Shown: positions 32,931 to 53,390 of the stretch, one piece after another
Layout: every line of letters begins with the position of its first letter
Position numbering within the stretch: the first letter of the stretch is position 1
Source of the DNA: Sulfurimonas sp. SAG-AH-194-I05
GTDB lineage: Bacteria; Campylobacterota; Campylobacteria; Campylobacterales; Sulfurimonadaceae
NCBI RefSeq assembly: GCF_029215955.1
Contig: NZ_JAEMVA010000003.1
Span: 1 to 64,000, forward strand
DNA length: 64,000 bases
Direction: 5' to 3'
The notes under the pieces: model-generated
The model's database searches: none
The model's input: the letters and a program-made list of their open reading frames with translations, nothing else
Told to the model about the DNA's origin: nothing
Translations under genes and position numbers: made by a program

Positions 32931-33758
32931 CTATTTTATAGTAGCTTTGCTTTGAAGACTTTTCATTGTTTCTGCCATAGAAATTTTAAATTTTTCCATT
33001 TTTAAACGGTCTTCTATAAATACTTTAACATCACTGAATGCTGCTGTCATTTCTTTTTTCTTGTCTTCTAGGTAAATAATATGAAAACCAAATTGTGTTT
33101 TAACAGCATCCGAGATTGTACCTTTTTTCATATTGAAAACTTTATTATCAAATTCTGGAACCATTTGACCCTGTGCAAAATAACCTAAATCTCCACCTTG
33201 CGGTCCACTTGGTCCAACAGATTTTTCTCTTGCTAAGTCAATAAACTTAGTTGCAAGTTCTTTCCCTTTAAGTGATTGTAATTCATCAAGTAAAGCCTTT
33301 GCTTCATTTTCTGTTTTAACTAAAATATGACGTGCATGTACACTTTCTTTTTGTTTAAATTCTTCTTTATTTTTTTCGTAATATTTTTTTACTTTTCGTG
33401 ATGATATTTTCACTTTATCTAATTGCTTCTTTTGCCAAACTTGAATTGCTAATTCTTTTTTAACCTTGTCTAGAACTTTAAGATATTCTGCTTTAAATTC
33501 TTTTGATTTCATAACACCAGTTTTTACAGCATCGCCATAAATGAGTTCTTTGGCTACAAGTTGCTCAAGAACTTGTCTTCTAAATTCTATTTGTTTATCA
33601 GCTGGAACCTGATTAAATCTACCCTGTGTTGCATTCATTAAAGCACTATCAACATCTTTTCTTGTTATTTCAGTCCCATTTACTGTCACAAGTACATCTG
33701 CCACAAGGATCGATGTCGTTAAAAGCATTGTCGAAATAATTTTTGTAGAAATTTTCAT
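32931..33758 (-). CDS. Periplasmic PpiC-type peptidyl-prolyl isomerase
   Basis: 275 residues with a signal peptide (about 1-20), a SurA-like helical N-terminal region and a parvulin domain (HARHILVKTENEAKALLDEL, then GPSGPQGGDLGYFAQGQMVP and FGFHIIYLEDKKKE). It is a folding factor for exported proteins, akin to Campylobacter PEB4/CBF2. A paralogue lies at 47774-48583 inside the cytochrome cluster. A good AGGAG site precedes the ATG. Confidence 0.92.
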   Translation of the reverse strand: MKISTKIISTMLLTTSILVADVLVTVNGTEITRKDVDSALMNATQGRFNQVPADKQIEFRRQVLEQLVAKELIYGDAVKTGVMKSKEFKAEYLKVLDKVKKELAIQVWQKKQLDKVKISSRKVKKYYEKNKEEFKQKESVHARHILVKTENEAKALLDELQSLKGKELATKFIDLAREKSVGPSGPQGGDLGYFAQGQMVPEFDNKVFNMKKGTISDAVKTQFGFHIIYLEDKKKEMTAAFSDVKVFIEDRLKMEKFKISMAETMKSLQSKATIK

Positions 33759-38826: not shown

Positions 38827-41250
38827 ATGAAAGTTGAACTATCTCGAAGAAAATTTCTTCAAGGCTCGGTTGCGTTAAGTATTTTTGGTGCGAGTGCTGT
38901 CTCCACAGTTCCAACTCTTTTAGCAAAAGAAAAAAAACAACATTTAAGTAAGCAGACTATTGCAACTCTATGCGAGATGTGCGTAAACCGTTGTGCTGCT
39001 TTTGCTACAGTTGATAATGGAATAGTTAAAAAACTTGATCCAAATCCTTTGTTTCCAAAGTCGAAAAATATGCTTTGTGCTCGTGGTGACGCAGGAATTC
39101 ATGCTCTGTATGATCCAGATAGATTAAAATATCCTATGATTCGCATAGGTGAAAAAGGCTCAGGTGAATTTAAACGTGTTACATGGGACGAAGCGTATGA
39201 GGCAATTTTAAACGGTACAGACAAGTTTAAAGGTTTTAAGCAAATTTTACACGAAGAAAAAAACAACCGTTCGACTATTGCTTACTGTGCTGGTGAGGGG
39301 ATGGGTGAACATACTTATAAAGATTTTATGGGTGGTTTATTTGGGTCTACAAACTTTGTAAACCATGCTTCTATTTGTTTACAAACAACTATCTCTGGGT
39401 ACGCCCTCACTATAGGTGGCTACGGAAAAGCCGACTTAGAAAACGCTCGCTATGTAATTATGGCTGGTGCAAACCGTGCAGAAGCCATTTTAACTCCTGA
39501 CACTATGGATATGTTTAAAAGAACAAGAGGACGTGGGCTCAAGCTTATAGTACTGGACCCTCGCTTCACAAATACAGCGCAACATGCAGACAAATGGTTA
39601 GGTATAAAAGTAGGAACAGACTTAGCCTTTGTTTTAGCTCTTACACATGTTGTAATTCACGAAGTCTTATATAATAAAGAATTTGCAGCTAAAAATATAA
39701 ATGGTTTTGAAAAATATAAAGAACATATTTTAAGTCATAACTATACCCCTGCGTGGGCTTCAAAAATCACAGGTATTGATGCAAATGACATTTTTACAAT
39801 AGCACGAGACTTTATGGCGAATGCTCCTCGTGCTATTTATTACCAAGGAAGACGTACTGCTTGGAGTAAGCAAGACTTCCAGCTTCGACGTGCACAGGCA
39901 ATTTTTACTGCTCTTGGTGGTGGTATTGATATTAAAGGTGGTATTATCTTTGGCAAAAAATTAGAACTCGATGCGCATATTGTTGAAGTGCCACTTTATT
40001 CAGGAAATAAACCAAGAATAGATAAAAATGAAGCAAGCTATGTAGGACCAAATGGTACATGGATTGGCTTTAGAAATTTAATAGCTGAGAAAAAAACACC
40101 GTATCCTGTTCGGGGAATGTTTGTGTATAAACATAACCCAATGCAAAGCGTTCCAAATATTACAAAAACAAGAAAAATGTTTGAAAACCTTGAACTTGTA
40201 GTAACCATTGACACAATGCCAAGCGACACTGTCATGATGTCAGATGTTATTTTGCCTGAGTGTAATTATTTAGAGAGAGAAGACCCTGTTAAATCGTTTG
40301 CAGGAATTGAACCGGCTATTGTACTTCGTAATAAAGTTATAGAACCTATGTATGAGACACGTGCTGTTTTTGATATTTTAAAAGGTTTAGCAAAAAAAGT
40401 TTCCGAACCTTTGTTTGACATAACACTCGAGTATGACGCTGACTTACGAGCAGAAGTTGCAGAGCGTGGAAGAGAAGATGTTTATGAAGAAGATATGTTT
40501 AATCTTAACCTTGCGTATGAGCACACACAAGAAGAAATAAATAAAGAGCGTGTAGTTGAAACATATGGAGAAGAAGCGTATCATACTTTAAAAGAAAAAG
40601 GTGTTTTTTACCCCCATATGGACACATATTTTAAAAAGATAAATATGAATGAGTACCAGTATTATCCAGAAGATAAAAAGTATTATTCTCGTCCATCAAA
40701 AGAAAAAACAGAAGCACTTGATAGCTGTGTAGATGAAAAAGCAATGGCTTCTTTAAAGAAAAATCTCTCAACTGGTTCAGGAAAAGTGGAATGTTGCTTA
40801 CCTAACCTAGCACTCAAAGGTGTTGACACTATGCCACAATGGCGTGAAGAACTTTACTTTGAAGTACAAAAGGGAAAATTTAAGTTTGTAACAGGTCGTC
40901 ATGCCCAACAAACACAAAATGCTACATCAAACAATATTATGCTACTTGATGTAATGCGAGAAAATTATTTGTGGATAAACAAAGAACAAGCAGAGCTAAA
41001 GGGCATTTCTCATGGAGATTGGGTTGAGGTTAAAAGTTCTATCGGTGCTGTTCGCATTAAGGCGTATCCTACGATTAAAATTATTAAAGATGTAGTATTT
41101 TATGTACATGGTTTTGGCTCAGAGTCAACGGGTCTTACATTTGGTTATAGAAATGGTGCAAGTGATAACATGATAATAGAAGATCATGTAGAAACAGTTT
41201 TTGGAAGTGCCGCAATGCATGAAACTGTTGTAGAAGTAACAAAGGTTTAA
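38827..41250 (+). CDS. psrA: PsrA/PhsA-type molybdopterin oxidoreductase, catalytic subunit
   Basis: 807 residues. A Tat signal (SRRKFLQGS, residues 5-13) sends the folded enzyme to the periplasm. The FeS motif CEMCVNRC with a later Cys (MLCARGD) binds a [4Fe-4S] cluster; molybdopterin guanine dinucleotide domains follow (GEGMGEHTYKDFMGG, GANRAEAIL). A Cys in NHASICL could ligate the metal, as in polysulfide and thiosulfate reductases. The C-terminal domain (WVEVKSSIGAVRIKAYP) is complete. It heads an operon with psrB and psrC. The substrate (polysulfide, thiosulfate or another) cannot be fixed from sequence. Confidence 0.88.
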   Translation: MKVELSRRKFLQGSVALSIFGASAVSTVPTLLAKEKKQHLSKQTIATLCEMCVNRCAAFATVDNGIVKKLDPNPLFPKSKNMLCARGDAGIHALYDPDRLKYPMIRIGEKGSGEFKRVTWDEAYEAILNGTDKFKGFKQILHEEKNNRSTIAYCAGEGMGEHTYKDFMGGLFGSTNFVNHASICLQTTISGYALTIGGYGKADLENARYVIMAGANRAEAILTPDTMDMFKRTRGRGLKLIVLDPRFTNTAQHADKWLGIKVGTDLAFVLALTHVVIHEVLYNKEFAAKNINGFEKYKEHILSHNYTPAWASKITGIDANDIFTIARDFMANAPRAIYYQGRRTAWSKQDFQLRRAQAIFTALGGGIDIKGGIIFGKKLELDAHIVEVPLYSGNKPRIDKNEASYVGPNGTWIGFRNLIAEKKTPYPVRGMFVYKHNPMQSVPNITKTRKMFENLELVVTIDTMPSDTVMMSDVILPECNYLEREDPVKSFAGIEPAIVLRNKVIEPMYETRAVFDILKGLAKKVSEPLFDITLEYDADLRAEVAERGREDVYEEDMFNLNLAYEHTQEEINKERVVETYGEEAYHTLKEKGVFYPHMDTYFKKINMNEYQYYPEDKKYYSRPSKEKTEALDSCVDEKAMASLKKNLSTGSGKVECCLPNLALKGVDTMPQWREELYFEVQKGKFKFVTGRHAQQTQNATSNNIMLLDVMRENYLWINKEQAELKGISHGDWVEVKSSIGAVRIKAYPTIKIIKDVVFYVHGFGSESTGLTFGYRNGASDNMIIEDHVETVFGSAAMHETVVEVTKV

Positions 41251-41252
41251 AT

Positions 41253-41933
41253 ATGAATTTTGCAATGTCATTAGATTATCAAAGCTGCATAGACTGTAAG
41301 GCCTGTGAAGTTGCCTGTAAAGAAGAAAATGGGGTGCAACTCGGAGCGGACAAACAACGAATATGGGTTTCTCAAGTAGAAACAAGTATATTTGGACAGC
41401 CCTTTATTAGTCTGCACCCATCACAATGTAACCATTGTCTTGACGCACCATGCGTAGATGTTTGTCCAACGGGAGCGAGTTACTTTGCCCTAGGTGGACT
41501 TGTTATGACCGATAAAGATACATGTATACTATGTAAGGGATGCATGGAAGCATGTCCTTATGATGCTCGTTTTGTCGATGATACGCATGTTGCAGTAGAT
41601 AAATGTAGCTTTTGCTATGAAACACGACTTGTTCATGGTGAAATGACTACTGCATGCCAAGCAACGTGTCCCACTAAAGTACGTTTACTAGGAGACATAG
41701 ATGATGAAGAATCTGATTTAGTACAACTTCTAAAAAAGAGGAAATTTTATGTATTAAAAGAAGAAGAAAAAACTGTACCTAAACTTTTTTACCTTCTTCC
41801 TGAACATGATGATTATTTTGCTATGAATTCTGTAAGTCCTGATACAAATATATATACATGGGATGAATATAAACCTATTATCGAAGCTGCAAAAGCTAAA
41901 AGGAAACCACAGTGGAAAACCGTAATACTTTAG
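41253..41933 (+). CDS. psrB: PsrB-type iron-sulfur electron-transfer subunit
   Basis: 226 residues with four cysteine groups for four [4Fe-4S] clusters: CIDCKACEVACKE, CNHCLDAPCVDVCP, CILCKGCMEACP, and a final CSFC with CQATCPT. There is no signal peptide; in this family it is exported with the Tat-bearing catalytic subunit. It carries electrons between PsrA and the membrane subunit. It starts two bases after psrA with an AAAGG site. Confidence 0.93.
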   Translation: MNFAMSLDYQSCIDCKACEVACKEENGVQLGADKQRIWVSQVETSIFGQPFISLHPSQCNHCLDAPCVDVCPTGASYFALGGLVMTDKDTCILCKGCMEACPYDARFVDDTHVAVDKCSFCYETRLVHGEMTTACQATCPTKVRLLGDIDDEESDLVQLLKKRKFYVLKEEEKTVPKLFYLLPEHDDYFAMNSVSPDTNIYTWDEYKPIIEAAKAKRKPQWKTVIL

Positions 41934-43162
41934 AGGTAAACAAACTAACATACAAAGAATTCTTTTTAGATAAAGTAATGCTTATTTCTTATGTTTTTTT
42001 AGCCTTATTTTTTTTCGGTGTTGTTGAAATGGTGTATGAGCGTTACTTTCTTCTTTCTGCAACTGCAGCAGATGCAGGGCTTTTTCCAGGAAGTCGAGCA
42101 GTAGCAGAGGCGATGAAAGAAGCGGTATTTGGTAATGGAGGAGAGGTTAAACGAGAAGCTCCTTGGTCACTGTATATTGTAAATTATATATATATGGTTT
42201 ATGTTGGTTCTGGAATTATATTTATTGTAGCTATTGGTGAACTTTTAGAAAATAAAGAGATTAAAAATATGGCAGCCGCATTTCTTAGCTTAGGTCTAGC
42301 GATGGTTATTGCGGGTTTAGTAACTATTTTAGTTGACTTAAATGTTCTAAACCTGCTCTCGATGCTCCTCTCCCCTCAGTTTAGTTCTGGCATGTGGCTA
42401 ATGCTACCTTTATATACAGTATATGTACCTCTCGTTATACTAGAGATTTATCTTGTTCTTAGCCATAAAGATGCTTGGATTAAAAAAATCGCTTACGCAA
42501 TTATAATTCTGAGTTTACTTGTAGAAGTAATAGAATTTTATGTACAAGCAAAATTATTTGACATGAATTCGGCACGACATTTATGGACAACCTACCCTTT
42601 ACTACCACTTTATTTTGTTGTTTCATCTTTCACTTCGTCTTTAGCTATTATGAGCCTTTATGTTTACCTCAATAAAGGAAATTTTATGTTGCGGTATATC
42701 ATTGAAAGAGCTACCTTATACTTTGTTCTAGCTTTAGGAATTTATGAAGCTGTTTCTTATCTTTTTATTGATAAGAAATGGGCTGAAATTATTCTTTTTG
42801 GTGATTTTAAGTACTGGTTTTATCTCTATGTATTTTTAGCAGTTTTACTACCTCTTGCATTACTCTTTAAACATTATATGAATATTTATTTTAAAATAAC
42901 AGCTGCATTTTCTATTATATTAGGAACATTTTTAGGAAAAATTGTTTTTGTGTATGGTGGAAATGCTTACCCAATGAGTGATAGATTTGGTGTAGGATTT
43001 GAGAAATACTTTGAATATGATGAGGTGAAAAATGTTATATTTTTCATGCCCCCTTTTAGTGAAGTAGCGATAGTTATAGGTTCTGTAGGTATCGTTTTAA
43101 TCATTTTTAGAGCTGTGGACTTACTTTTACTACCTAAAAAGCTTGTAGAAAAAGGAGTGTAA
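41912..43162 (+). CDS. psrC: PsrC/NrfD-type membrane quinone-reactive subunit
   Basis: 416 residues, eight to ten hydrophobic segments, NrfD/PsrC-like. It should anchor PsrAB to the periplasmic face of the inner membrane and exchange electrons with menaquinone. The start is GTG with AAGGAAACCACA upstream and lies 22 bases inside psrB. The N-terminal region has an unusually long loop between the first two helices (about residues 45-85). Sequence is fairly divergent, so the family call rests on context as well. Confidence 0.88.
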   Translation: MENRNTLEVNKLTYKEFFLDKVMLISYVFLALFFFGVVEMVYERYFLLSATAADAGLFPGSRAVAEAMKEAVFGNGGEVKREAPWSLYIVNYIYMVYVGSGIIFIVAIGELLENKEIKNMAAAFLSLGLAMVIAGLVTILVDLNVLNLLSMLLSPQFSSGMWLMLPLYTVYVPLVILEIYLVLSHKDAWIKKIAYAIIILSLLVEVIEFYVQAKLFDMNSARHLWTTYPLLPLYFVVSSFTSSLAIMSLYVYLNKGNFMLRYIIERATLYFVLALGIYEAVSYLFIDKKWAEIILFGDFKYWFYLYVFLAVLLPLALLFKHYMNIYFKITAAFSIILGTFLGKIVFVYGGNAYPMSDRFGVGFEKYFEYDEVKNVIFFMPPFSEVAIVIGSVGIVLIIFRAVDLLLLPKKLVEKGV

Positions 43163-44442
43163 TGAACGATAGCAGTAGAAAAATCGGTTTACTCGGTGCA
43201 ATCTCAATAGGAATAGGAGGCATGGTAGGTGGCGGTATCTTCGCTGTACTTGGAGAAGCTGTTTCTTTAGCACATAGTGCTACAGCCATTGCTTTTTTAC
43301 TAGCAGGATTGGTAGCTTTATTAACAGCGTATTCCTATGCTAAGTTATCTGTTTGTTACCAAAATAGTGCTGGGACAGTTGTTTTTATTACCAATGCTTT
43401 TGGAAATAATCTTTTTTCAAGTGCCATTAACATTATGCTATGGCTAAGTTATTTAGTTACAATCTCTTTATATGCCACTGCTTTTGCTTCGTATGGCGCA
43501 ACTTTTTTTACAAATACTTCTTCGTTACTCCATCATATACTTATTTCTCTTGCTATTATTTTACCTGCTGTTTTGAATCTTATAAGCTCTAAAATAGTTA
43601 CACAGTCAGAAACTACAATTGTAGTCATAAAGTTAGCTCTTTTAGCGCTTGTGATTGTTTCTGGTATACCATATATAGATACTACCCGATTAGCGTTACC
43701 ATCATTAAATCAAGGACTTGGAGTAATAACTGCTGGAATGATAATCTTTGTAGCCTATGAAGGCTTTGAACTTATAGCTAATTCAGCCCAAGAGATAAAA
43801 AATCCCACTATCAATCTTCCTCGTGCTTTTTATGCATCTGTAATTATTGTAATACTTTTATATATTTTAATATCTTTAGTTGTTGTTGGTACTGTGAATG
43901 AAAGTCAACTCTTAGAAGCGAAGGAATATGCCCTAGCACTGGCAGCAAAACCAGCTTTAGGAGAAATAGGCTTTAGTCTTGTAGCTATAGCAGCACTCTT
44001 ATCTACTTTTTCAGCTATAAATGCAACAATATACGGCAATGCACGATTAGGAGTTTTTCTTGCTAAAGAAAGAGAATTACCTAAAAAACTACAGCATGTG
44101 CAACGTGACATACCAGATATAGGTGTTGTTGTAACTACTATTTTAAGCTTAATAATTGCAAATAGTATCTCTTTGAGTGAAATTGCGATTATTGCTAGTG
44201 CTGGTTTTTTACTTATATTTGCTTTGGTTAACCTTGCAGCATTTAAACTTAGAGCAATCATTAAAGCAAAAGCAAGTATTGTTTTAAGTGCCTTTATTAT
44301 GAGTAGTTTAGCTCTTTTTACATTACTCATCTATACTTTTAAGTATAATCCACATGCTATTATTATTTTTATAAGTTTTATAGCAATTGCATTTCTTTTT
44401 GAGTTCTTCTTCTCTCGAATTTTTGGTGTTTCTCCTGCTTAA
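43162..44442 (+). CDS. APC-family amino-acid permease
   Basis: 426 residues with about twelve hydrophobic helices. The first helix has the substrate-binding GIGGMVGGGIFAVLG unwound segment typical of the APC superfamily, and FVAYEGFELIANSAQEIKNP is the conserved helix 6 region. It imports or exchanges an amino acid or related compound; substrate unknown. Its ATG overlaps the psrC stop codon (TAATG) with AAAAGGAG upstream, so it is translationally coupled to the psr genes, an unexpected partner. Confidence 0.88.
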   Translation: MNDSSRKIGLLGAISIGIGGMVGGGIFAVLGEAVSLAHSATAIAFLLAGLVALLTAYSYAKLSVCYQNSAGTVVFITNAFGNNLFSSAINIMLWLSYLVTISLYATAFASYGATFFTNTSSLLHHILISLAIILPAVLNLISSKIVTQSETTIVVIKLALLALVIVSGIPYIDTTRLALPSLNQGLGVITAGMIIFVAYEGFELIANSAQEIKNPTINLPRAFYASVIIVILLYILISLVVVGTVNESQLLEAKEYALALAAKPALGEIGFSLVAIAALLSTFSAINATIYGNARLGVFLAKERELPKKLQHVQRDIPDIGVVVTTILSLIIANSISLSEIAIIASAGFLLIFALVNLAAFKLRAIIKAKASIVLSAFIMSSLALFTLLIYTFKYNPHAIIIFISFIAIAFLFEFFFSRIFGVSPA

Positions 44443-44517
44443 ATAAATCCCTTCTTATTCAATATTGGAAAATTTTATATTTATCTTTAAATTAAACTTG
44501 GCTTAAATAATTTCATG

Positions 44518-44540
44518 TAATAATGCGTATGTTCGAACAT
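44518..44540 (+). promoter_or_regulatory. Palindromic candidate operator at the heptaheme cytochrome promoter
   Basis: ATGTTCGAACAT (44529-44540) is a perfect 12-bp palindrome placed five bases after a -10-like TAATAAT (44518-44524), so it would straddle the transcription start. A TTGGCT at about the right distance upstream could be the -35. A GGGGAAAA site precedes the ATG at 44561. Confidence 0.5.
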
Positions 44541-44560
44541 TAAGAAAAAAAGGGGAAAAA

Positions 44561-46939
44561 ATGAAAAGTAAATTACTACTATCAGTTGCTGCTAGTATTG
44601 CTTTTATGGTTGTGAGTGCAACGTCTGCGCTTGCTTATGACAAAAATCCTCCATTTAAACTTACCAAACTTCAAAAGTTTGTAAAAGTTGTAGATGGACA
44701 AAGAGTAGTTGGTTATGAACCAAAAAATGCTTACAATGTTTTTGTAAACTACGAACTCGGTATGCACTGTGTTGGTTTTGAAATGAGTTACTGTTGTGTA
44801 ATTCCACCATATAACTCAATTCAAGCCCAAGCTATACAAAGTGGTCAAAATGGAAAAACGCCAAAACTTTTATCACCTGCTGATGATGTGAAACTTTATT
44901 ATTATACTAAAGACAACGCATACAGTGAAGGTAACAAAATGAAGTACTGGTCTGTACCAAAAGATGCAGATGGAGATGGTCACTTTGATTCTCCGGGCGA
45001 CAATGTTGCAAACTACGTTTGGACACACCTTTTTATCTATAAAGATTTAGAAGGTACAATCCCTAGTGGCGCAACAGATAAAGACCGTCTTCGTATAGGT
45101 CGTCAAATTCCTGTAAATATTGATTGTGGTCCTTCTGGAAAACCAATGTCTGGTGGTTACTTAGACTATGCTGGTAAACATGGTGGAAGTATTGTTATGA
45201 CTGACACTCTTGTTCCTGCTGTTAAAAATGTTAAGCTAGTACTTACTGCTTCTCATATTTGGGATGCATTAGGTCTTCCATTAACTGCATTTAATGATTC
45301 TACAAGAAAAGGTTCTATCCGTTCAGTTACTGAAAAAGATTTCCAACCTTTCCAATACTCTACTGTAGAATTACATGATAGAAGCGGTAAAGCGAAAAAA
45401 AATAAAACAGGTCATGCAGTATCTTACTTTGGTACAAATCCTGTAGATATTCCTAACTGTTATGCTTGTCACTCTAGAAATGGTAAAGCTGCACAAATGG
45501 CTAGAGATGAAGGTATCACAGCAAGTGATAGAGAATACAAATACTGGAAAACATATCCAGATGAAAGTGAATATATGGCAAGACTTGCTGAATCTTCAAT
45601 CAACATTCTTTCATTACATGATTCACATCATGGTACTACATTTATGCAAGATTACAGAGATAATGCATCTGGAAATAGACTTGGTAAAACTGGTTTAGTT
45701 AACTGTGCTGACTGTCATGGTGACAATGTTTCTGGAAACTTACAAGAGCCTCGTCCTACTGCATCTGGTTATAAAGCTGTAAAAGCTAAACCACTTTCTG
45801 AAGCGATTCATAGTTTTCACCTTGCAATGGTTCCAATGCCAGATGCTGCTGGTCGTTCTCAAGCGTGTCAATCATGTCACCCTACACACTTCCAAAATCC
45901 TAATATGAATGATGATTCTAATCCATTTAGAGTTACAGACAGATACGGTGAAGGTAGATTTGCTAAATCAGATATCAGAACTTCTGGTGGTGGTTGTTAT
46001 GTACGTCGTGACGCGCACTCAAATCCTGATGCTAAACCACCTTTCTTCTTAAATGCATATGGTTCTTGGCAGCTAGAAAATGTAGCTACTAAAGATGAGC
46101 ATGGTAAAGATGCTGGTGAACTTAGAGGACTATATTGTACAAACTGTCACACTAAAGTTGCGCAAGGTATGCAAAACTACGATAATATCTTACATGATAG
46201 TACTCAAGAAGGTAAAACTTTAAGAAACAAAACTATGAAAGAAATTATTGCTGAACTAGCTGGCGGAGATGCAAAGAAATTTGCTGCAATTGCTGACCCT
46301 AAATCAACTGGTGATAACGAAGTATTAAGTTACTATTCTGATCATAAATCTGCTGTTCTTGTTAAGAACGTTGGTAAAGATGGCAAATTAGATCTTAAAC
46401 CATGGAACCACCCAACTGGTGGAGAAGTTCCATATATCGCAGCATCTGGTGGTAATGACTGGTGGTTATCTGCTGCTGAGCCTCATTGTGCGGATTGTCA
46501 CTTAGCTCCATTTGTTGAGAGTGAAACTGGTGGTAAATACTTCCCAATTGATTTACCTAACAAGTACTCTTTATATAGATACTCAAAAGCGCATGGAAAC
46601 ATAGCGTGTCAATCATGTCATGAATCAACTCACGGGTTATATTCAAGTAGATATGATGGTAAAGAACATTCTGTTGACTCAACTACACACGAACAAGCTC
46701 TTCAGTATTCTCCAGATGGTGAATATGCTGGTCCTGTTACTTGTGCTGCATGTCATACAGTAAATAAAAAAGGTGTTCCTTTACAACTTAAAGATACACA
46801 ATATGCAAACGATTATTGGGCATCGGTAACTTTAGCTCACTTTATGAGAGATGGTGATCAAAAACTATCTGTTAAAGAGTTAACTGAAAAATATCCGTAC
46901 CACAAATCTGCAAATATTGTAGAAAAAGGTTGGAAGTAA
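44561..46939 (+). CDS. Secreted heptaheme cytochrome c with a cysteine-containing N-terminal domain
   Basis: 792 residues with a Sec signal (1-25). Seven CxxCH haem sites begin at residues 300, 382, 436, 526, 643, 683 and 728. Residues 26-290 are haem-free and carry NYELGMHC (63-70), a Cys pair at 78-79, Cys189 and a calcium-loop-like DADGDGHFD (135-143). A second DGDQKLSVKEL loop lies near the C-terminus (764-774). Cys479 (CYVRRDAH) is outside a CxxCH. It is probably a periplasmic or surface electron carrier or reductase. No CxxCK or C-x15-CH motif is present, so it is neither NrfA nor MccA. Function unknown. Confidence 0.88.
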   Translation: MKSKLLLSVAASIAFMVVSATSALAYDKNPPFKLTKLQKFVKVVDGQRVVGYEPKNAYNVFVNYELGMHCVGFEMSYCCVIPPYNSIQAQAIQSGQNGKTPKLLSPADDVKLYYYTKDNAYSEGNKMKYWSVPKDADGDGHFDSPGDNVANYVWTHLFIYKDLEGTIPSGATDKDRLRIGRQIPVNIDCGPSGKPMSGGYLDYAGKHGGSIVMTDTLVPAVKNVKLVLTASHIWDALGLPLTAFNDSTRKGSIRSVTEKDFQPFQYSTVELHDRSGKAKKNKTGHAVSYFGTNPVDIPNCYACHSRNGKAAQMARDEGITASDREYKYWKTYPDESEYMARLAESSINILSLHDSHHGTTFMQDYRDNASGNRLGKTGLVNCADCHGDNVSGNLQEPRPTASGYKAVKAKPLSEAIHSFHLAMVPMPDAAGRSQACQSCHPTHFQNPNMNDDSNPFRVTDRYGEGRFAKSDIRTSGGGCYVRRDAHSNPDAKPPFFLNAYGSWQLENVATKDEHGKDAGELRGLYCTNCHTKVAQGMQNYDNILHDSTQEGKTLRNKTMKEIIAELAGGDAKKFAAIADPKSTGDNEVLSYYSDHKSAVLVKNVGKDGKLDLKPWNHPTGGEVPYIAASGGNDWWLSAAEPHCADCHLAPFVESETGGKYFPIDLPNKYSLYRYSKAHGNIACQSCHESTHGLYSSRYDGKEHSVDSTTHEQALQYSPDGEYAGPVTCAACHTVNKKGVPLQLKDTQYANDYWASVTLAHFMRDGDQKLSVKELTEKYPYHKSANIVEKGWK

Positions 46940-46950
46940 CATTCCTTAAT

Positions 46951-46979
46951 TTTTTCCCTCTTGAGGGAAAAAATTTCTA
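46951..46979 (+). terminator. Terminator after the heptaheme cytochrome gene
   Basis: TTTTTCCCTC and its exact complement GAGGGAAAAA (46963-46972) form a long stem with a minimal loop, eleven bases after the stop codon, followed by ATTTCTATTTTTTATT. It may leave only partial read-through into the downstream gene, which has its own TATAAT at 47020-47025. Confidence 0.75.
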
Positions 46980-47072
46980 TTTTTTATTCTAATAAAACTA
47001 TATATTGTTATATTTTTACTATAATAAACGCTCATAAGAAAATAATCAAACTCCCCCATTTAAGGACATAAG

Positions 47073-47750
47073 ATGAATAAATATTTTAAAGGTGCACTTC
47101 TCGTTTCCCTTGCAACTGCTTCGCTTAATGCAGAACTAGTTATTACAAACTTTGATACTGGTGAAGTGAAAAAGGAAACAAATTATATTGATGGTACAAA
47201 TACGGACATTAAAGTAGGAATCAAAAATGGTATAGAAAAAGTATATTATCAAATGGGTCGTATGGCGTATCAAGTGAACTATATCGAGGATAAAAGAGAT
47301 GGAATCTTAGAATGGTTTGATAAAGAAGGTAATAAATTATCTGAAATTTATTATAAGCTTGGAAAAATTACAGGTGAAGAAAAATCTTTTTATCCTAATA
47401 AACAAGTTAAACATACAGTAACGTATGTAAATGACTTAAAAGAAGGCATTCAAAAAGAATATTTTAGTACTGGGACACTTGCACAAGAGGTAAACTATAC
47501 TAAAGGTAAAAAAAATGGCCTCCAAAAAGAGTATACAGATGATGGAAACCTTTATACAAAAGTTAACTATATAAATAACTATAAAGAAGGCTTACAAAAA
47601 TGGTACGACAAACATTCTAAAGTGATAAGAGAGACTCTCTTTAAACAAGATAGACCTGTTGAAATCATGAAACAAGTTCAAAGAACAGACCAGTACAACG
47701 ATGTGCTTTCTGTAACCGGCATTGACTTTTCACCACAAAAACCTGAGTAA
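47073..47750 (+). CDS. Secreted MORN/YwqK-like repeat protein (first paralogue)
   Basis: 225 residues with a signal peptide (1-20). The mature part is about seven repeats of the MORN_2 type, each with a Tyr/Phe-x-x-G-x-hydrophobic core (for example VYYQMGRMAYQVNYIEDKRD and EYFSTGTLAQEVNYTKGKKN). COG2849 names such proteins after the YwqK antitoxin, but a secreted copy without a toxin partner is not likely an antitoxin. A paralogue lies at 49230. It has its own -10 and an AAGGAC site. The role is unknown; a scaffold or binding surface is plausible. Confidence 0.75.
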   Translation: MNKYFKGALLVSLATASLNAELVITNFDTGEVKKETNYIDGTNTDIKVGIKNGIEKVYYQMGRMAYQVNYIEDKRDGILEWFDKEGNKLSEIYYKLGKITGEEKSFYPNKQVKHTVTYVNDLKEGIQKEYFSTGTLAQEVNYTKGKKNGLQKEYTDDGNLYTKVNYINNYKEGLQKWYDKHSKVIRETLFKQDRPVEIMKQVQRTDQYNDVLSVTGIDFSPQKPE

Positions 47751-47773
47751 CAAACACAAAAAAAAGGATATAT

Positions 47774-48583
47774 ATGAAACGAATACAAAACACCCTCCTA
47801 GCAATGAGTATGGCTGCAACTTTAAGTTTAGCCAATACTGATACTTATGCCGTAGTAAATGGCGAGATAATAACGAAAAACCAAGTTGTAATTTCTTTAA
47901 AAAATCAAAATATTGATTTTAGTTCTCTTAATAAAAAACAACAAAAAGAGATTGGAAATAAGATTATTGAACAAAAATTATTAAGTCAATATGCTTTAAA
48001 ATCAGATGCAATAAAAAGTCCAGAGTATCTTGAAAAACTAGATAAGGTCAAAGGAAATATTGCCTTACAAGTATTTTTAAAAAATGGAATTAAAAAAATA
48101 AAAGTTTCAACTAACGAGATAAAAGACTTCTACACTAAAAACAGTTACTTATTTATTGAGCCTGCTCAATATAGAGCAAGACATATTTTAGTTAAAACAA
48201 AGAAAAAAGCAGTTGAACTTATTAATGAATTAAAAAAGTCTAAGCAATTAAAAAATACATTTATTGCATTAGCAAAGAAAAACTCAACAGGCCCTTCTTC
48301 AAAAGATGGTGGTAATTTAGGTTGGTTCTCATCAAACAAAATGGTTGCCGAATTCGGAAAAGCAGTTTCTTCACTTAAGAAAAATGCGATTACACTCAAT
48401 CCTGTCAAAACGCAATACGGATACCATGTAATTTACCTCGAAGATAAAAAAGACAAAGGTACGATCAAATTATCTCAAGTAGAAGTTGAAATAAAACAAA
48501 AAATAATGGCTGATAAGTTAGAGAAAAAAATGCTTACTCTCATCAAAGAACTTAAAAAATCTGCTAAAGTTGAATACAAATAA
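47774..48583 (+). CDS. PpiC-type peptidyl-prolyl isomerase in the cytochrome cluster
   Basis: 269 residues with a signal peptide (1-20), a SurA-like helical part and a parvulin domain (ARHILVKTKKKAVELINELK, then GPSSKDGGNLGWFSSNKMVA and YGYHVIYLEDKKDKG). It is a paralogue of the PpiC protein at 32931-33758. Placement between the cytochrome and CcsBA genes suggests it folds the heptaheme protein, as has been proposed for MccB in the Wolinella mcc cluster. AAAAGGA precedes the ATG. Confidence 0.9.
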   Translation: MKRIQNTLLAMSMAATLSLANTDTYAVVNGEIITKNQVVISLKNQNIDFSSLNKKQQKEIGNKIIEQKLLSQYALKSDAIKSPEYLEKLDKVKGNIALQVFLKNGIKKIKVSTNEIKDFYTKNSYLFIEPAQYRARHILVKTKKKAVELINELKKSKQLKNTFIALAKKNSTGPSSKDGGNLGWFSSNKMVAEFGKAVSSLKKNAITLNPVKTQYGYHVIYLEDKKDKGTIKLSQVEVEIKQKIMADKLEKKMLTLIKELKKSAKVEYK

Positions 48584-48604
48584 TTTCAATTACAAAGGAC
48601 ATAA

Positions 48605-49228
48605 ATGAAATATATACTTACAATATTACTGTTAAGCCTTAGCGTATTTGCTTCAACCTCACATGAGGCAAAAATCCTAGAAATACTAGAGAGTGGTGGC
48701 TACACATACATGAAAGTTCAAGACAAAAAGGTAAAGTACTGGATTGCCATGACACAACGCAAGGTAAAAGTAGGAGAAACTATTTCATTTATTGAACAAG
48801 GTTGGATGAGTAAATTTCAATCTAAAACACTTAACCGTACATTTGAGAAGATACTTTTTGCATCTGACAAAGTACAAGGAAGACAAAGTTTAAAAGACAT
48901 AAAGCCCAATATTGCATTCTCCAAGTATAAAGAAAATAATACTGTAATAATTGCTGAACTTTTTGCTAATCGAGATAAATATGTTGGCAAAGAAATTATT
49001 ATCAAAGGAAAGGTTACTAAAACTTCTATCGGGATTATAAAAAGAAATTGGGTTCACATTAATGATGGAAGCCGTTTTCAAAATATGGATGATATCGTAT
49101 TTACAACTTCGGGGAATGTTCCAAGTGTTGGAGACATAGTATATGCAAAAGGTACTGTAGCAAAAGATGTTGATTTTGGATATGGCTACTTTTATCCTAT
49201 AATTATTCAAAAATCTTCTTTTAAATAA
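48605..49228 (+). CDS. Secreted OB-fold-like protein with two tandem domains
   Basis: 207 residues with a signal peptide (1-16). The first half (SGGYTYMKVQDKKVKYWIAM, then VKVGETISF) and the second (VGKEIIIKGKVTKTSIGIIK, then WVHINDGS and VGDIVYAKGTVAKD) each look like a five-stranded OB-type barrel. Similar two-domain secreted proteins occur beside multihaem cytochromes in other anaerobes as far as I recall; the function is not known. AAAGGAC precedes the ATG, 22 bases after the PpiC gene. Confidence 0.72.
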   Translation: MKYILTILLLSLSVFASTSHEAKILEILESGGYTYMKVQDKKVKYWIAMTQRKVKVGETISFIEQGWMSKFQSKTLNRTFEKILFASDKVQGRQSLKDIKPNIAFSKYKENNTVIIAELFANRDKYVGKEIIIKGKVTKTSIGIIKRNWVHINDGSRFQNMDDIVFTTSGNVPSVGDIVYAKGTVAKDVDFGYGYFYPIIIQKSSFK

Positions 49229-49229
49229 A

Positions 49230-49829
49230 ATGAATTTAATTTTAATAATAGGCACTTTGATTGCCACAAATGCATTTGCTACAGAACTTCCTTGTAGAAA
49301 TCCAGATAAATATATTGCGCAAGACAAGGCACGTACATCTACTTATGTAAATTGCAAGCGAAATGGAATGACATTTTGGTATAGCGAATCTGGACATATC
49401 AAATCTCAAGTAAACTTTATTGATGGTAAAGAAAATGGACTCTATACTTCATTCTACAATAATCAACAAAAAAAAATTGTTGTTCATTATATAGATGGAC
49501 AAAAAGATGGTGTTCAAAATATATACTATAACACAGGACAGCTCGGGAGCAGAGTTACATATAAAATGGGTAAAAGAGAAGGCTTAATGGTCGACTGGGA
49601 TATAGAAGGATTTAAAAGTGCTGAAGTATTCTATAAAAACAACTATAAAGTGGGTTTAAAAAAATATTTTGATCATTCACACAATGTAATTATGACGGAA
49701 ACCTATAAAATGGATCGAAATCCTTTAATGATTAAACTCTTAAAAGATAAAAGAAAAGAAATTTTAGTGGACTTATCTAAGTATGGTTTAGTACCAGAAA
49801 ATGCTACTTATAAGGAAAAGATGAAATAA
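49230..49829 (+). CDS. Secreted MORN/YwqK-like repeat protein (second paralogue)
   Basis: 199 residues with a signal peptide (1-17) and two early cysteines (PCRNP and NCKRNG) that could form a disulfide. About five MORN_2 repeats follow (for example YYNTGQLGSRVTYKMGKREG). The C-terminal end (MTETYKMDRNPLMIKLLKDK) is clearly related to that of the 47073 protein (RETLFKQDRPVEIMKQVQR), so the two arose by duplication. The ATG is one base after the preceding stop codon. Confidence 0.72.
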   Translation: MNLILIIGTLIATNAFATELPCRNPDKYIAQDKARTSTYVNCKRNGMTFWYSESGHIKSQVNFIDGKENGLYTSFYNNQQKKIVVHYIDGQKDGVQNIYYNTGQLGSRVTYKMGKREGLMVDWDIEGFKSAEVFYKNNYKVGLKKYFDHSHNVIMTETYKMDRNPLMIKLLKDKRKEILVDLSKYGLVPENATYKEKMK

Positions 49830-49880
49830 GATAATTTAAACTAATAATAAAAATAATTTGTATTTATAATAAATATATGC

Positions 49881-49913
49881 TATAATTCCTTTATATAATT
49901 ATTATAAGGAATT
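49881..49913 (+). promoter_or_regulatory. Promoter and inverted repeat of the 49919 gene
   Basis: TATAAT (49881-49886) overlaps the left arm of an inverted repeat, AATTCCTT (49884-49891) with AAGGAATT (49906-49913). The right arm is the Shine-Dalgarno region. Because the left arm overlaps the -10 box it would act as DNA operator rather than as mRNA hairpin. Confidence 0.4.
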
Positions 49914-49918
49914 CAATT

Positions 49919-50152
49919 ATGAAAAATAAATTATTAATTTTAATACTATTACTATCCTCAGCAGCATTTGCTTTTACTTTACCAACAGCGTATCAAGATC
50001 AAAAAATTGGTATAGACAAGGATGCAAAACTTTGTAAACTCTTTCAAAAAAAAGCACATTTATATGAAAAAACAATGCGTGAAGATATATATGCTAAAAA
50101 AACACTCGAGTCATATCAGTTAAGAGCTGAATTATACTGCATAAAAAATTAG
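49919..50152 (+). CDS. Small secreted protein (77 aa)
   Basis: A signal peptide (1-19) precedes a mature chain of about 58 residues, largely helical, with two Cys (one in KLCKLF, one near the C-terminus in YCIKN) that could pair. No family is recognised. It has its own TATAAT and a good AAGGAATT site, and lies between the second MORN gene and ccsBA. Confidence 0.6.
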   Translation: MKNKLLILILLLSSAAFAFTLPTAYQDQKIGIDKDAKLCKLFQKKAHLYEKTMREDIYAKKTLESYQLRAELYCIKN

Positions 50153-50223
50153 CTATGCTTGTATATTGATACTATCTCTTTTATTATCAATATAGATTCA
50201 ACATTTGTTAACTACCTTCTATG

Positions 50224-50256
50224 TATAATGCCTTCAAATAATTTAATGTATGAAGG
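50224..50256 (+). promoter_or_regulatory. ccsBA promoter and inverted repeat
   Basis: TATAAT (50224-50229) is followed by CCTTCA (50231-50236) and, 14 bases later, TGAAGG (50251-50256), whose GAAGG is the Shine-Dalgarno for the ATG at 50265. The geometry resembles the element before the 49919 gene. Confidence 0.45.
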
Positions 50257-50264
50257 TATTTACC

Positions 50265-53200
50265 ATGAAACAACTTTTATCCCTCTTTGACTCCATGAAA
50301 ACCATGGCTATTTTAATGCTACTCTTTGCTTTTGCCATTGGATATGCTACATTTATCGAAAACGATTACGGTACAATCACATCAAAAGCTGAGATATTTA
50401 ACACAAAATGGTTTGAAGTTTTACTAGGACTCTTAACCTTAAACCTCATGCTAAATATTTATAAGCATAAAATGTTTTCCCTCAATAAAGCCCCTATATT
50501 CATCTTTCATATAGCTTTTATAGTTATTATTATTGGTGCTGCAATCACCCGCTACTATGGATACGAAGGGAGTATGCATATTCGTGAGGGCGACACAGTA
50601 AAAACAATGACAAGTTCTTATACATACTTTACAGTAGATGCAAAATCTGGTACAAAAAATACAATAGATTCTCAGATTCTTTACCTTTCTAAAAAAAGTA
50701 CAAATAACTTATCTGTATCACTCGAAGTTGATTCTAAACAAGTTGATGTTGAACTTATAGACTATATTCCAGACGCTATGGAAAAAATGGTTGTAGATAA
50801 TGCGCACGGAATTTCAGTTGCTGACATGATGGTTACGGGAGGAGGAAAAGGTCGACCGGTTGCACTCAAAGAAGGCACCTACTATGACACAGGAAGTGTA
50901 ATTTTAGACTTTAACACAGGAAAGGATTTTGATACTCCTGTAATTCATATCTATAAAAAAGATGGTGCACTCTTTTTAGATCATAAAATGGTACTTAAAT
51001 ATTTAAAAATGGATGACAGAAGTGATGGAGATCTTCTCGCTAACGTAAGTGAACCCTTCGCTAAAAGAACCTTATTTACAGTGGGTGAAAGTAGTTTTGT
51101 TCTTAAAAATTATTTACCACATGCTTCTATGAAGATTGTTACAAATCCTAAAGCAAAACCTATGAATCCTGGTATTGATGCCCTCAAATTTAAAATTACA
51201 GTCGATGGTGTTTCAAAAGAAACGATGCTTTATGGACAACCTGGGACATTAGCAAAAGAACAACATAATGCTATTAACGGCGTTGATGTTCATATTTCAT
51301 ATGGTGCAAAAGAGTTAGAGCTTCCTTTTGGAATTCATCTTAAAGACTTTGAGCTAGAACGCTACCCAGGATCAATGAGTCCAGCTTCATATGCAAGTGA
51401 AGTAACACTCATAGATGAAGAAGAAGGTTTAACCATGCCATATAGAATTTTTATGAATAATGTTCTAGAACATCGTGGATATAGATTTTTTCAAGCTTCA
51501 TATGATCAGGATGAGTTAGGAACTGTTCTTTCTGTAAATAATGACCCAGGAACACTTCCTTCATATATTGGATATGCACTTTTAGCGCTAGGTATGTTTT
51601 GGTCTCTTTTTTCAAGAAAAAATCGTTTTTCAAAGTTAGCAGCAAAAGCTAAAAAAGCAAATGAGAAAAAAATGTTATCGTTTTTGCTAGCCTTTGGACT
51701 ATTGAGTACATTCACTCCCTCTCATGCAGAGGACTTACATCCAGAAATTAAAACCATTATTTCCTTTGATAAAGACCATGCCAAAAAATTTGGTGAACTC
51801 ATAGTCCAAGATTCTAAAGGACGGATGAAACCTATGGATACACTTACGACTGAAGTACTAGCAAAACTATATGGTTCTGCAAAACTTAAAGTCGGAAAAT
51901 ATTCCTTAACATCAAATCAAGTTGTTTTAGGAATGATGATAAGTCCTGAATCTTACAAATATATTAAAATAATTAAAACAAAAAATAAAGATATAAACAA
52001 ACTTATAGGAGCACCAGAAGATGCAAAATATGTATCATTTTCACAATTTTTTCAAGATCCAACTGGGATAAGAGGCTATAAACTAGGTCAAGTTATTGAA
52101 AATGCTGCGAGAAAAGAAGCTAAGCATAGAGATAAGTTTGACAAAGCACTTTTAAAAATTGACGAAAAAGTGAATGTGTCTTATATGATTTTTACAGGCT
52201 CACTTATAAAAATATGGCCAAAACCAAATGACAATACAAATAAATGGCATCCAACTATTGAAGCATTACAAACCTTTGAAGCTGAAGTTGGAGAACGTGT
52301 CCGTACCACTGCTGTTGAGTATTTCACATCTATAGATGATTCGCTTATAAGTGGAAACTGGGATGCTCCAACAAAGGCTCTTTCAAAAATTGCTACATTT
52401 CAGCATGAATTTGGCTCTGCTGTATATCCAACAGAATCAAGAATTAAAGCAGAAGTTTTTTATAATGAAGTACGTATTTTTGAAAGAATTTATCCAATGT
52501 ACCTTTTAATGGGTTTTATTCTTTTAATACTTAGTTTTGTAAAAATACTCAAACCAAGTTTTAAAATGGACTTAGTTACAAAAGCCTCACTTTGGTTTTT
52601 AATTTTTCTTTTTATTGCACACACAGTTGGCCTTATAAACAGATGGTATATTTCAGGACATGCCCCTTGGTCAAACGGATATGAATCTATGATCTATATT
52701 GGTTGGGCAACTGTTCTTGCTGGATTTATTTTTTCTAAACGTTCGTCAATGACCTTAGCATCAACTGCAATCTTAGCCGGTCTCATTCTTTTTGTTGCAC
52801 ACTTAAGCTGGATGAATCCACAAGTTACAAACCTAGTTCCTGTTCTTAACTCCTACTGGTTGAGTATTCATGTATCTATGATTACTGCAAGTTATGGCTT
52901 CCTTGGTCTTGGTGCCTTACTTGGATTTGTTTCTATTATACTTTTCATTTTGAAAACAACAAAGAATGAAAAACACCTTAGTCTTTCTATTAAAGAGTTG
53001 AATGCCATTAATGAGATGAGTATTATGGCAGGTCTTGTTCTTTTAAGTGTTGGTAATTTCCTTGGTGGAGTGTGGGCAAATGAATCATGGGGTAGATACT
53101 GGGGTTGGGATCCAAAAGAAACATGGGCATTAGTAACAATTCTTATATATGCTGTGATTTTACATCTTAGATTTATTCCATCACTTTACACGCAGTTTAA

Positions 53201-53390
53201 CTTTGCTGTGGTTTCAACACTGGGCTATACTTCAGTTATAATGACGTATTTTGGAGTAAACTATTACCTTGCAGGTCTTCACTCGTATGCAAAAGGTGAT
53301 CCAGTTCCTATTCCTGATTTTGTGCCAATAACGTATGCTATACTCTTTTTAGTTATTGCTTTAGCATTTAGAAATAGAAAACTTTCCTAA
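50265..53390 (+). CDS. ccsBA: Fused System II cytochrome c synthase CcsBA
   Basis: 1041 residues from the ATG at 50265 (GAAGG eight bases upstream); an ATG five codons earlier has no such signal. The N-terminal half is ResB/CcsB-like: three membrane helices, a periplasmic domain (about 90-420), then another helix. The C-terminal half is CcsA-like with the WWD haem-handling motif WGRYWGWDPKETWALV and several conserved His residues. It carries haem across the membrane and attaches it to CxxCH motifs. Its position suggests service to the heptaheme protein, though it may be the general synthase. Length is typical for Campylobacterota. Confidence 0.95.
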   Translation: MKQLLSLFDSMKTMAILMLLFAFAIGYATFIENDYGTITSKAEIFNTKWFEVLLGLLTLNLMLNIYKHKMFSLNKAPIFIFHIAFIVIIIGAAITRYYGYEGSMHIREGDTVKTMTSSYTYFTVDAKSGTKNTIDSQILYLSKKSTNNLSVSLEVDSKQVDVELIDYIPDAMEKMVVDNAHGISVADMMVTGGGKGRPVALKEGTYYDTGSVILDFNTGKDFDTPVIHIYKKDGALFLDHKMVLKYLKMDDRSDGDLLANVSEPFAKRTLFTVGESSFVLKNYLPHASMKIVTNPKAKPMNPGIDALKFKITVDGVSKETMLYGQPGTLAKEQHNAINGVDVHISYGAKELELPFGIHLKDFELERYPGSMSPASYASEVTLIDEEEGLTMPYRIFMNNVLEHRGYRFFQASYDQDELGTVLSVNNDPGTLPSYIGYALLALGMFWSLFSRKNRFSKLAAKAKKANEKKMLSFLLAFGLLSTFTPSHAEDLHPEIKTIISFDKDHAKKFGELIVQDSKGRMKPMDTLTTEVLAKLYGSAKLKVGKYSLTSNQVVLGMMISPESYKYIKIIKTKNKDINKLIGAPEDAKYVSFSQFFQDPTGIRGYKLGQVIENAARKEAKHRDKFDKALLKIDEKVNVSYMIFTGSLIKIWPKPNDNTNKWHPTIEALQTFEAEVGERVRTTAVEYFTSIDDSLISGNWDAPTKALSKIATFQHEFGSAVYPTESRIKAEVFYNEVRIFERIYPMYLLMGFILLILSFVKILKPSFKMDLVTKASLWFLIFLFIAHTVGLINRWYISGHAPWSNGYESMIYIGWATVLAGFIFSKRSSMTLASTAILAGLILFVAHLSWMNPQVTNLVPVLNSYWLSIHVSMITASYGFLGLGALLGFVSIILFILKTTKNEKHLSLSIKELNAINEMSIMAGLVLLSVGNFLGGVWANESWGRYWGWDPKETWALVTILIYAVILHLRFIPSLYTQFNFAVVSTLGYTSVIMTYFGVNYYLAGLHSYAKGDPVPIPDFVPITYAILFLVIALAFRNRKLS

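Follow-up and report, generated by a model that had tools for sequence, protein, structure and literature searches.

A heptahaem cytochrome and the secreted MORN-type protein that accompanies it in Sulfurimonas and other Campylobacterota

Introduction

Several described systems bear comparison with the gene cluster considered here, which is built around a heptahaem cytochrome in a Sulfurimonas genome. The mcc system has fixed NrfD, iron-sulfur (FeS) and PpiC partners, and conduits of the MtrC type need a lipoprotein and a porin. A haem site of the CX15CH type that needs its own haem lyase is described for the mcc system (PMC6976685). Psr homologs are present in all sequenced Sulfurimonas (PMC4584964), and four psr clusters are given for Sulfurovum indicum (PMC10045233). 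The cluster lies in a stretch of 64,000 nucleotides (hereafter the window; contig NZ_JAEMVA010000003.1 of Sulfurimonas sp. SAG-AH-194-I05, positions 1 to 64,000) belonging to a draft genome of 2.05 Mb in 110 contigs, 85% complete, whose Sulfurimonas kind was judged by its nearest relatives. Positions 38827-53390 had been predicted to encode one undescribed respiratory system comparable to that of Wolinella (the original prediction). Comparison with other genomes leads us to a tentative alternative, namely that two unrelated units stand end to end: psrABC with a permease gene (38827-44442), followed by a heptahaem-cytochrome module (44561-53390).

A cytochrome accompanied by MORN1

The second unit comprises the features below; the signal sequences of the multihaem cytochrome (MHC), MORN1, MORN2, the PpiC protein, the OB protein and the small protein were recognised by eye in the sequence.

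44561-46939, plus strand: heptahaem cytochrome (MHC), 792 amino acids, with a Sec-type signal sequence, seven CXXCH motifs and a haem-free N-terminal region containing GMHC
46948-46975, plus strand: terminator-like hairpin (12-pair stem and T-run), putative attenuator between MHC and MORN1
47073-47750, plus strand: MORN1, secreted MORN_2/YwqK-like protein (MORN_2, 8e-21), predicted core partner of MHC
47774-48583, plus strand: PpiC-type isomerase (PpiC rotamase family), a probable local addition within the gene run and no conserved part of it
48605-49228, plus strand: secreted protein of two OB folds (AlphaFold model and fold match), putative satellite
49230-49829, plus strand: MORN2, second secreted MORN protein (MORN_2 family), putative satellite
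49919-50152, plus strand: small secreted protein of 77 amino acids with two conserved cysteines (open reading frame with homologues in other MHC loci), putative satellite
50250-53390, plus strand: CcsBA cytochrome c synthase (ResB and Cytochrom_C_asm domains in one protein), second copy in the genome

Scanning MHC against 84,980 species genomes yielded 79 loci; a plasmid collection gave no match. For adjacency, 38 Campylobacterota loci had sufficient flank (2 kb or more on either side), and in 33 of them MORN1 lies within 2 kb of MHC, in several gene orders. The order is MHC-MORN1-CcsBA in Sulfurimonas and MORN1-(MORN2)-MHC in Sulfurovum, where the OB and small-protein genes are divergent. In two loci (L030 and L035), CcsBA-small-OB and MORN1-MHC-MORN2 run on opposite strands, and a further one (L027) has MHC-MORN1-OB with the small-protein gene and CcsBA divergent. 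A comparison of 200 genomes of the family found orthologs of MHC and MORN1 together in 25 genomes, belonging to genera g1 (Sulfurimonas) and g3 (one sister genus); the exceptions within these genera are G040, where 80 bp separate MORN1 from the end of a contig, and G148, which has only fragments of MHC, at contig ends. Judged from gene order and gene content, the core module in Campylobacterota is thus MHC with MORN1.

The remaining genes are bound to MHC less closely. OB orthologs are found in 29 of the 43 family genomes with MHC versus 3 of the 157 others, and MORN2 in 11 of 43 versus 0 of 157, by Fisher tests that ignore phylogeny and are taken as support, not as proof. Despite this enrichment, OB and MORN2 mostly lie at a distance from MHC in relatives, MORN2 adjoining it in the Sulfurovum loci. 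In ten other MHC loci, a homologue of the small protein stands next to OB or CcsBA; within the family, the small protein has matches in 10 genomes, 8 of which carry MHC. By the same comparisons, OB, MORN2, the small protein and CcsBA belong to the module as loose satellites: most relatives have them dispersed, whereas they are clustered here and in Sulfurovum. The usual site of OB in relatives is beside glyS and a gene for a 128-residue superoxide-reductase-like protein (the latter recognised by eye). In the present genome this site lacks OB (L155 11550-14120, on contig C19 of G000); since OB is present in the window cluster instead, the gene has apparently moved there.

The loci also vary in their individual genes. 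In L027 (8970-9767) and L046 (9001-9792), the small secreted protein has a form of 264-266 amino acids that consists of about four repeats of the same cysteine-bearing unit. The heptahaem gene is duplicated in tandem in two Sulfurovum loci (L044 and L056), and five genomes of genus g10 (G010, G027, G036, G044, G061) hold a second copy, 56-57% identical. In the one-contig genome G053 (L138 6240-8665), a frame break at the GMHC motif divides it in two, which reflects either a sequencing error or a broken gene.

Features of the cytochrome family

MHC contains exactly seven CXXCH motifs, at residues 300, 382, 436, 526, 643, 683 and 728, and the alignment of 47 homologues has a mean column identity of 74%. 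The protein is 58-65% identical in Hydrogenothermaceae (Aquificota), Methylacidimicrobium and relatives (Verrucomicrobia), Nitrospiraceae and Geobacteraceae; in two Methylacidiphilaceae loci, it is 61% identical to that of the window, versus 50% for aspartokinase used as a yardstick. Four cysteines outside the haem motifs are invariant, namely C70 (within GMHC), the vicinal pair C78-C79 and C479. At least 11 histidines outside CXXCH are invariant as well, so that every haem could have bis-His ligation. The AlphaFold model is weak (predicted local distance difference test score, pLDDT, of 60) and gave no match in the PDB. As had been predicted, the cytochrome represents an undescribed family, with neither a Pfam family of its own nor a solved relative; within the portions available of the literature found on the topic, it is not named. 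Of 14 MHC-bearing genomes examined for OB outside Campylobacterota, 13 lack it, the Geobacteraceae genome alone having OB-like domains. In four unrelated lineages (L034, L067, L075, L082), the heptahaem gene has trpE, pabB, trpB/F/C or DAHP synthase genes (identified by eye) in its vicinity; these chorismate and aromatic-amino-acid genes are not constant within lineages and their presence is possibly due to chance.

MHC belongs to the GMHC superfamily, having an N-terminal GMHC domain and a CXXCH array. Over residues 52-442 it is distantly related to nine-haem proteins (hhalign of the two family alignments, probability 99.7%, E 5e-27), which include the GMHC cytochromes of Sulfurimonadaceae (e.g., L145, L147, L149). 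The latter have the GMHC domain and CXXCH arrays in common with MHC but differ from it in having nine haems rather than seven, lipoprotein-like N-termini, no MORN partner and no YCC motif. Outside the haem motifs, the nine-haem family keeps two invariant cysteines and no more: the first is part of GMHC and the second closely follows a CXXCHPG site. From their positions, they may be the counterparts of C70 and C479 of MHC. Genes of this kind are found in L145, L146, L147 and L149 (G010, G036, G125, G120), often two to three per locus and near response-regulator genes, and their products are apparently undescribed too.

MHC departs from the mcc and MtrC-type systems on several counts. Like MccA/SirA, it is a secreted multihaem c-type cytochrome, and in this window alone genes for PpiC, NrfD and FeS proteins and a haem lyase lie close by; unlike MccA/SirA, it has no CX15CH-type site, no C-x(n)-CH motif longer than CXXCH being present up to 17 residues. 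Nor does it have the conserved mcc-type cluster of PpiC, the FeS protein MccC, the NrfD protein MccD and a dedicated haem lyase: PsrBC and PpiC do not stay with the cytochrome, and its CcsBA is usually the general copy. The likeness to Wolinella mcc on which the original prediction drew accordingly does not hold, and the analogy was rejected on haem motif and partners. With MtrC, MtrF and OmcA, MHC shares a weak Pfam match to MtrC/MtrF domain II/IV, seen in all 47 aligned members; it differs in having seven haems, no full-length similarity and no PDB match. There is no cysteine at a lipobox position in its signal cleavage region (read by eye), and no porin or periplasmic decahaem partner gene was seen beside it in the loci read, in any lineage looked at.

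OB protein, CcsBA and an intergenic hairpin

The OB protein was modelled by AlphaFold with a mean pLDDT of 85, and tandem OB-fold proteins come out as the best matches of the model in the PDB, bearing out the secreted two-domain OB-like protein that had been proposed. Lipoprotein versions of OB occur near diverse multihaem cytochromes with 3 to 11 CXXCH motifs in L133, L134 and L141 (G127, G141, G140), with a divergent CcsBA (42-43%) nearby in L133 and L141; this looks like a separate cluster of the extracellular-electron-transfer type. In G077, a genome without the heptahaem gene, a shortened OB is likewise associated with CcsBA: its neighbours are a divergent copy (42%) and part of a multihaem cytochrome (L128 12235-15991).

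The window CcsBA is a full-length System II cytochrome c synthase, both domains being present in one protein of 1046 amino acids (PF05140, 7e-25; PF01578, 2e-39); it departs from the usual case as a second copy that stands beside MHC. CcsBA is found in 190 of the 200 family genomes, usually as a single copy. The present genome has two, the other occupying the canonical Sulfurimonas site on another contig (L129), where a DUF2461-like gene and ferrochelatase follow (names given by eye). In the phylogeny, the window copy has as its sister the canonical copy from the MHC-lacking genome G195 (support 100/99), and not the MHC-adjacent CcsBA of other Sulfurimonas. The association of MHC with CcsBA thus probably arose more than once, which fits a role of CcsBA in cytochrome maturation without being specific to MHC. 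A dedicated CcsBA was rejected for most genomes, in which the neighbour of MHC is the single general copy.

The hairpin with its T-run follows the MHC gene. Comparable hairpins recur elsewhere: of 30 spacers between MHC and MORN1 in other loci, 18 have one, whereas dinucleotide shuffles gave 1.5 on average. These data point to frequent termination of transcripts behind MHC, with MORN1 presumably required in smaller amounts.

PsrABC, the permease and PpiC

The first unit and its members are as follows.

38827-43162, plus strand: psrABC operon, a probably independent neighbour (families; found without MHC elsewhere)
38827-41250, plus strand: PsrA, PsrA/PhsA-type molybdoenzyme (N-terminal RRKFL twin-arginine motif, family match)
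41253-41933, plus strand: PsrB, ferredoxin-type FeS subunit (family match)
41912-43162, plus strand: PsrC, NrfD-type membrane subunit (family match)
43162-44442, plus strand: APC-type amino-acid permease, a probably independent neighbour (family match; overlap with psrC)

All genes named in the original prediction are intact plus-strand open reading frames of the families proposed; its list passed over the permease, which lies between PsrC and the cytochrome. With a Tat-exported molybdopterin subunit, an FeS subunit and an NrfD-type membrane subunit in one operon, 38827-43162 is an ordinary member of the PsrABC/PhsABC polysulfide/thiosulfate reductases, differing in a link to the cytochrome module that is seen in this genome only. 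The PhsA model score of PsrA is below the cut-off and no substrate was assigned. The permease frame overlaps the psrC stop by one base and is separated from the cytochrome gene by a gap of 118 bp; such coupling of permease and psrC translation would be peculiar to this genome, no permease standing next to psrC in relatives.

Relatives of PsrA, PsrB, PsrC, the permease and the cluster PpiC were found at none of the 79 MHC loci, with flanks of up to 10 kb on each side. Close relatives of PsrC occur in 8 of the 200 family genomes, of which 5 lack MHC, and at their loci neither permease nor cytochrome lies downstream of psrC. The best-scoring family relative of the cluster PpiC is 42% identical and none exceeds 43%, the best relatives representing the general periplasmic isomerase of the family. 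That isomerase is encoded in the window itself, at 32931-33758, by a second PpiC-type gene whose product is 39% identical to the cluster protein. PsrABC, the permease and PpiC are not taken as parts of the system, given their absence from the 79 loci, the occurrence of PsrC mostly without MHC and the lack of a close family ortholog of PpiC; judged by synteny, PsrABC next to the cytochrome is a chance neighbourhood in this one genome. A PsrABC-linked pathway was rejected on synteny and co-occurrence, and PpiC as a conserved part on its distant best relative and its absence from MHC loci.

Discussion

The original prediction joined PsrABC, the cytochrome, the MORN pair, PpiC, OB and CcsBA into one mcc-like respiratory pathway, linked to quinone through PsrC. 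The genes do share a strand and nearly continuous spacing, and their kinds recall a reductase that has FeS and NrfD subunits along with a PpiC protein and a haem lyase. Yet PsrABC is beside MHC at none of the other 79 loci and is mostly found in genomes without it, the haem motif of MccA is missing, and the permease and a gap intervene between the units, making a single pathway very improbable. What stands is an undescribed cytochrome set, its extent and its coupling to PsrC having been misjudged: MHC, MORN, OB, the small protein and CcsBA associate in other Campylobacterota, whereas PsrABC, the permease and PpiC do not.

MHC could well be a periplasmic multihaem oxidoreductase that acts autonomously, is matured by CcsBA and is served by periplasmic helpers specific to Campylobacterota, and this is the explanation that we tentatively favour. 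The protein would be exported by Sec, receive its seven haems from CcsBA and act as a soluble enzyme exchanging electrons with the periplasmic c-cytochrome pool, not with PsrC. C70 of GMHC, C479 and the C78-C79 pair, together with the haem-free N-terminal region, would form the likely substrate or structural site; the substrate might be a small sulfur or nitrogen compound, which would fit the habitats. MORN1, MORN2, OB and the small protein might assist folding, haem loading or anchoring; that these helpers would be needed in smaller amounts than MHC fits the hairpin after its gene. MHC would work alone in most phyla, the helpers having been acquired in Campylobacterota. Several observations weigh against this explanation. 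Genera g6, g7, g10 and g16 have MHC without MORN1, and outside Campylobacterota none of the partner genes is adjacent to MHC, which has no conserved neighbour there; the helpers would thus be dispensable in general. The co-occurrence tests leave phylogeny aside, the strong conservation of MHC could partly reflect recent gene transfer, and its sequence profile returned nothing significant, and hence no solved relative, from the PDB. The MtrC/MtrF domain match shared by the aligned members, moreover, also suits a conduit.

As such a conduit or store, MHC would be a periplasmic or cell-surface relative of MtrC/MtrF-like cytochromes that exchanges electrons between the periplasm and partners outside the cell, and the MORN and OB proteins would form an envelope scaffold. 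Besides the Pfam match, its homology with nine-haem GMHC proteins that have lipoprotein-like N-termini and the presence of OB-containing lipoproteins in multihaem cytochrome clusters with divergent CcsBA speak for this possibility, which we nevertheless regard as somewhat unlikely. The cytochrome has no lipobox and no adjoining porin gene, its identity of 58-65% across phyla would be high for a conduit, and it occurs in Methylacidimicrobium, which are acidophilic aerobic methanotrophs. We prefer an enzyme because of the unusual conservation, the invariant cysteines, the missing lipobox and porin partner, and this presence in acidophilic methanotrophs. Alternatively, the MORN, OB and small-protein genes might be markers of the same habitats and clades rather than partners of MHC, their order being due to inheritance and shared transfer. 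The occurrence of MHC without them in other phyla, the usual place of OB beside glyS and the superoxide-reductase-like gene, and the neglect of phylogeny in the Fisher tests all agree with this. However, MORN1 is found on either side of MHC in Sulfurimonas and Sulfurovum, so that adjacency was kept or rebuilt across rearrangements, and OB and MORN2, which stand apart from MHC in relatives, have come together with it in the present genome and in Sulfurovum; we consider mere markers quite unlikely.

Within the enzyme explanation, a bolder and rather unlikely extension would see MHC as a widely exchanged heptahaem enzyme that carries out, through the GMHC cysteine site, a periplasmic redox reaction common to sulfur- and hydrogen-oxidising Campylobacterota, Aquificota and acidophilic methanotrophs, with secreted MORN_2 proteins as dedicated partners. 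The tight link between MHC and MORN1 offers a clean genetic test of the role of a secreted MORN/YwqK-like protein, in genera with cultured members such as Sulfurimonas indica (locus L008). Being so conserved across five phyla, with its seven haems and invariant cysteines, MHC probably carries bioenergetic weight in bacteria of vents and geothermal habitats.

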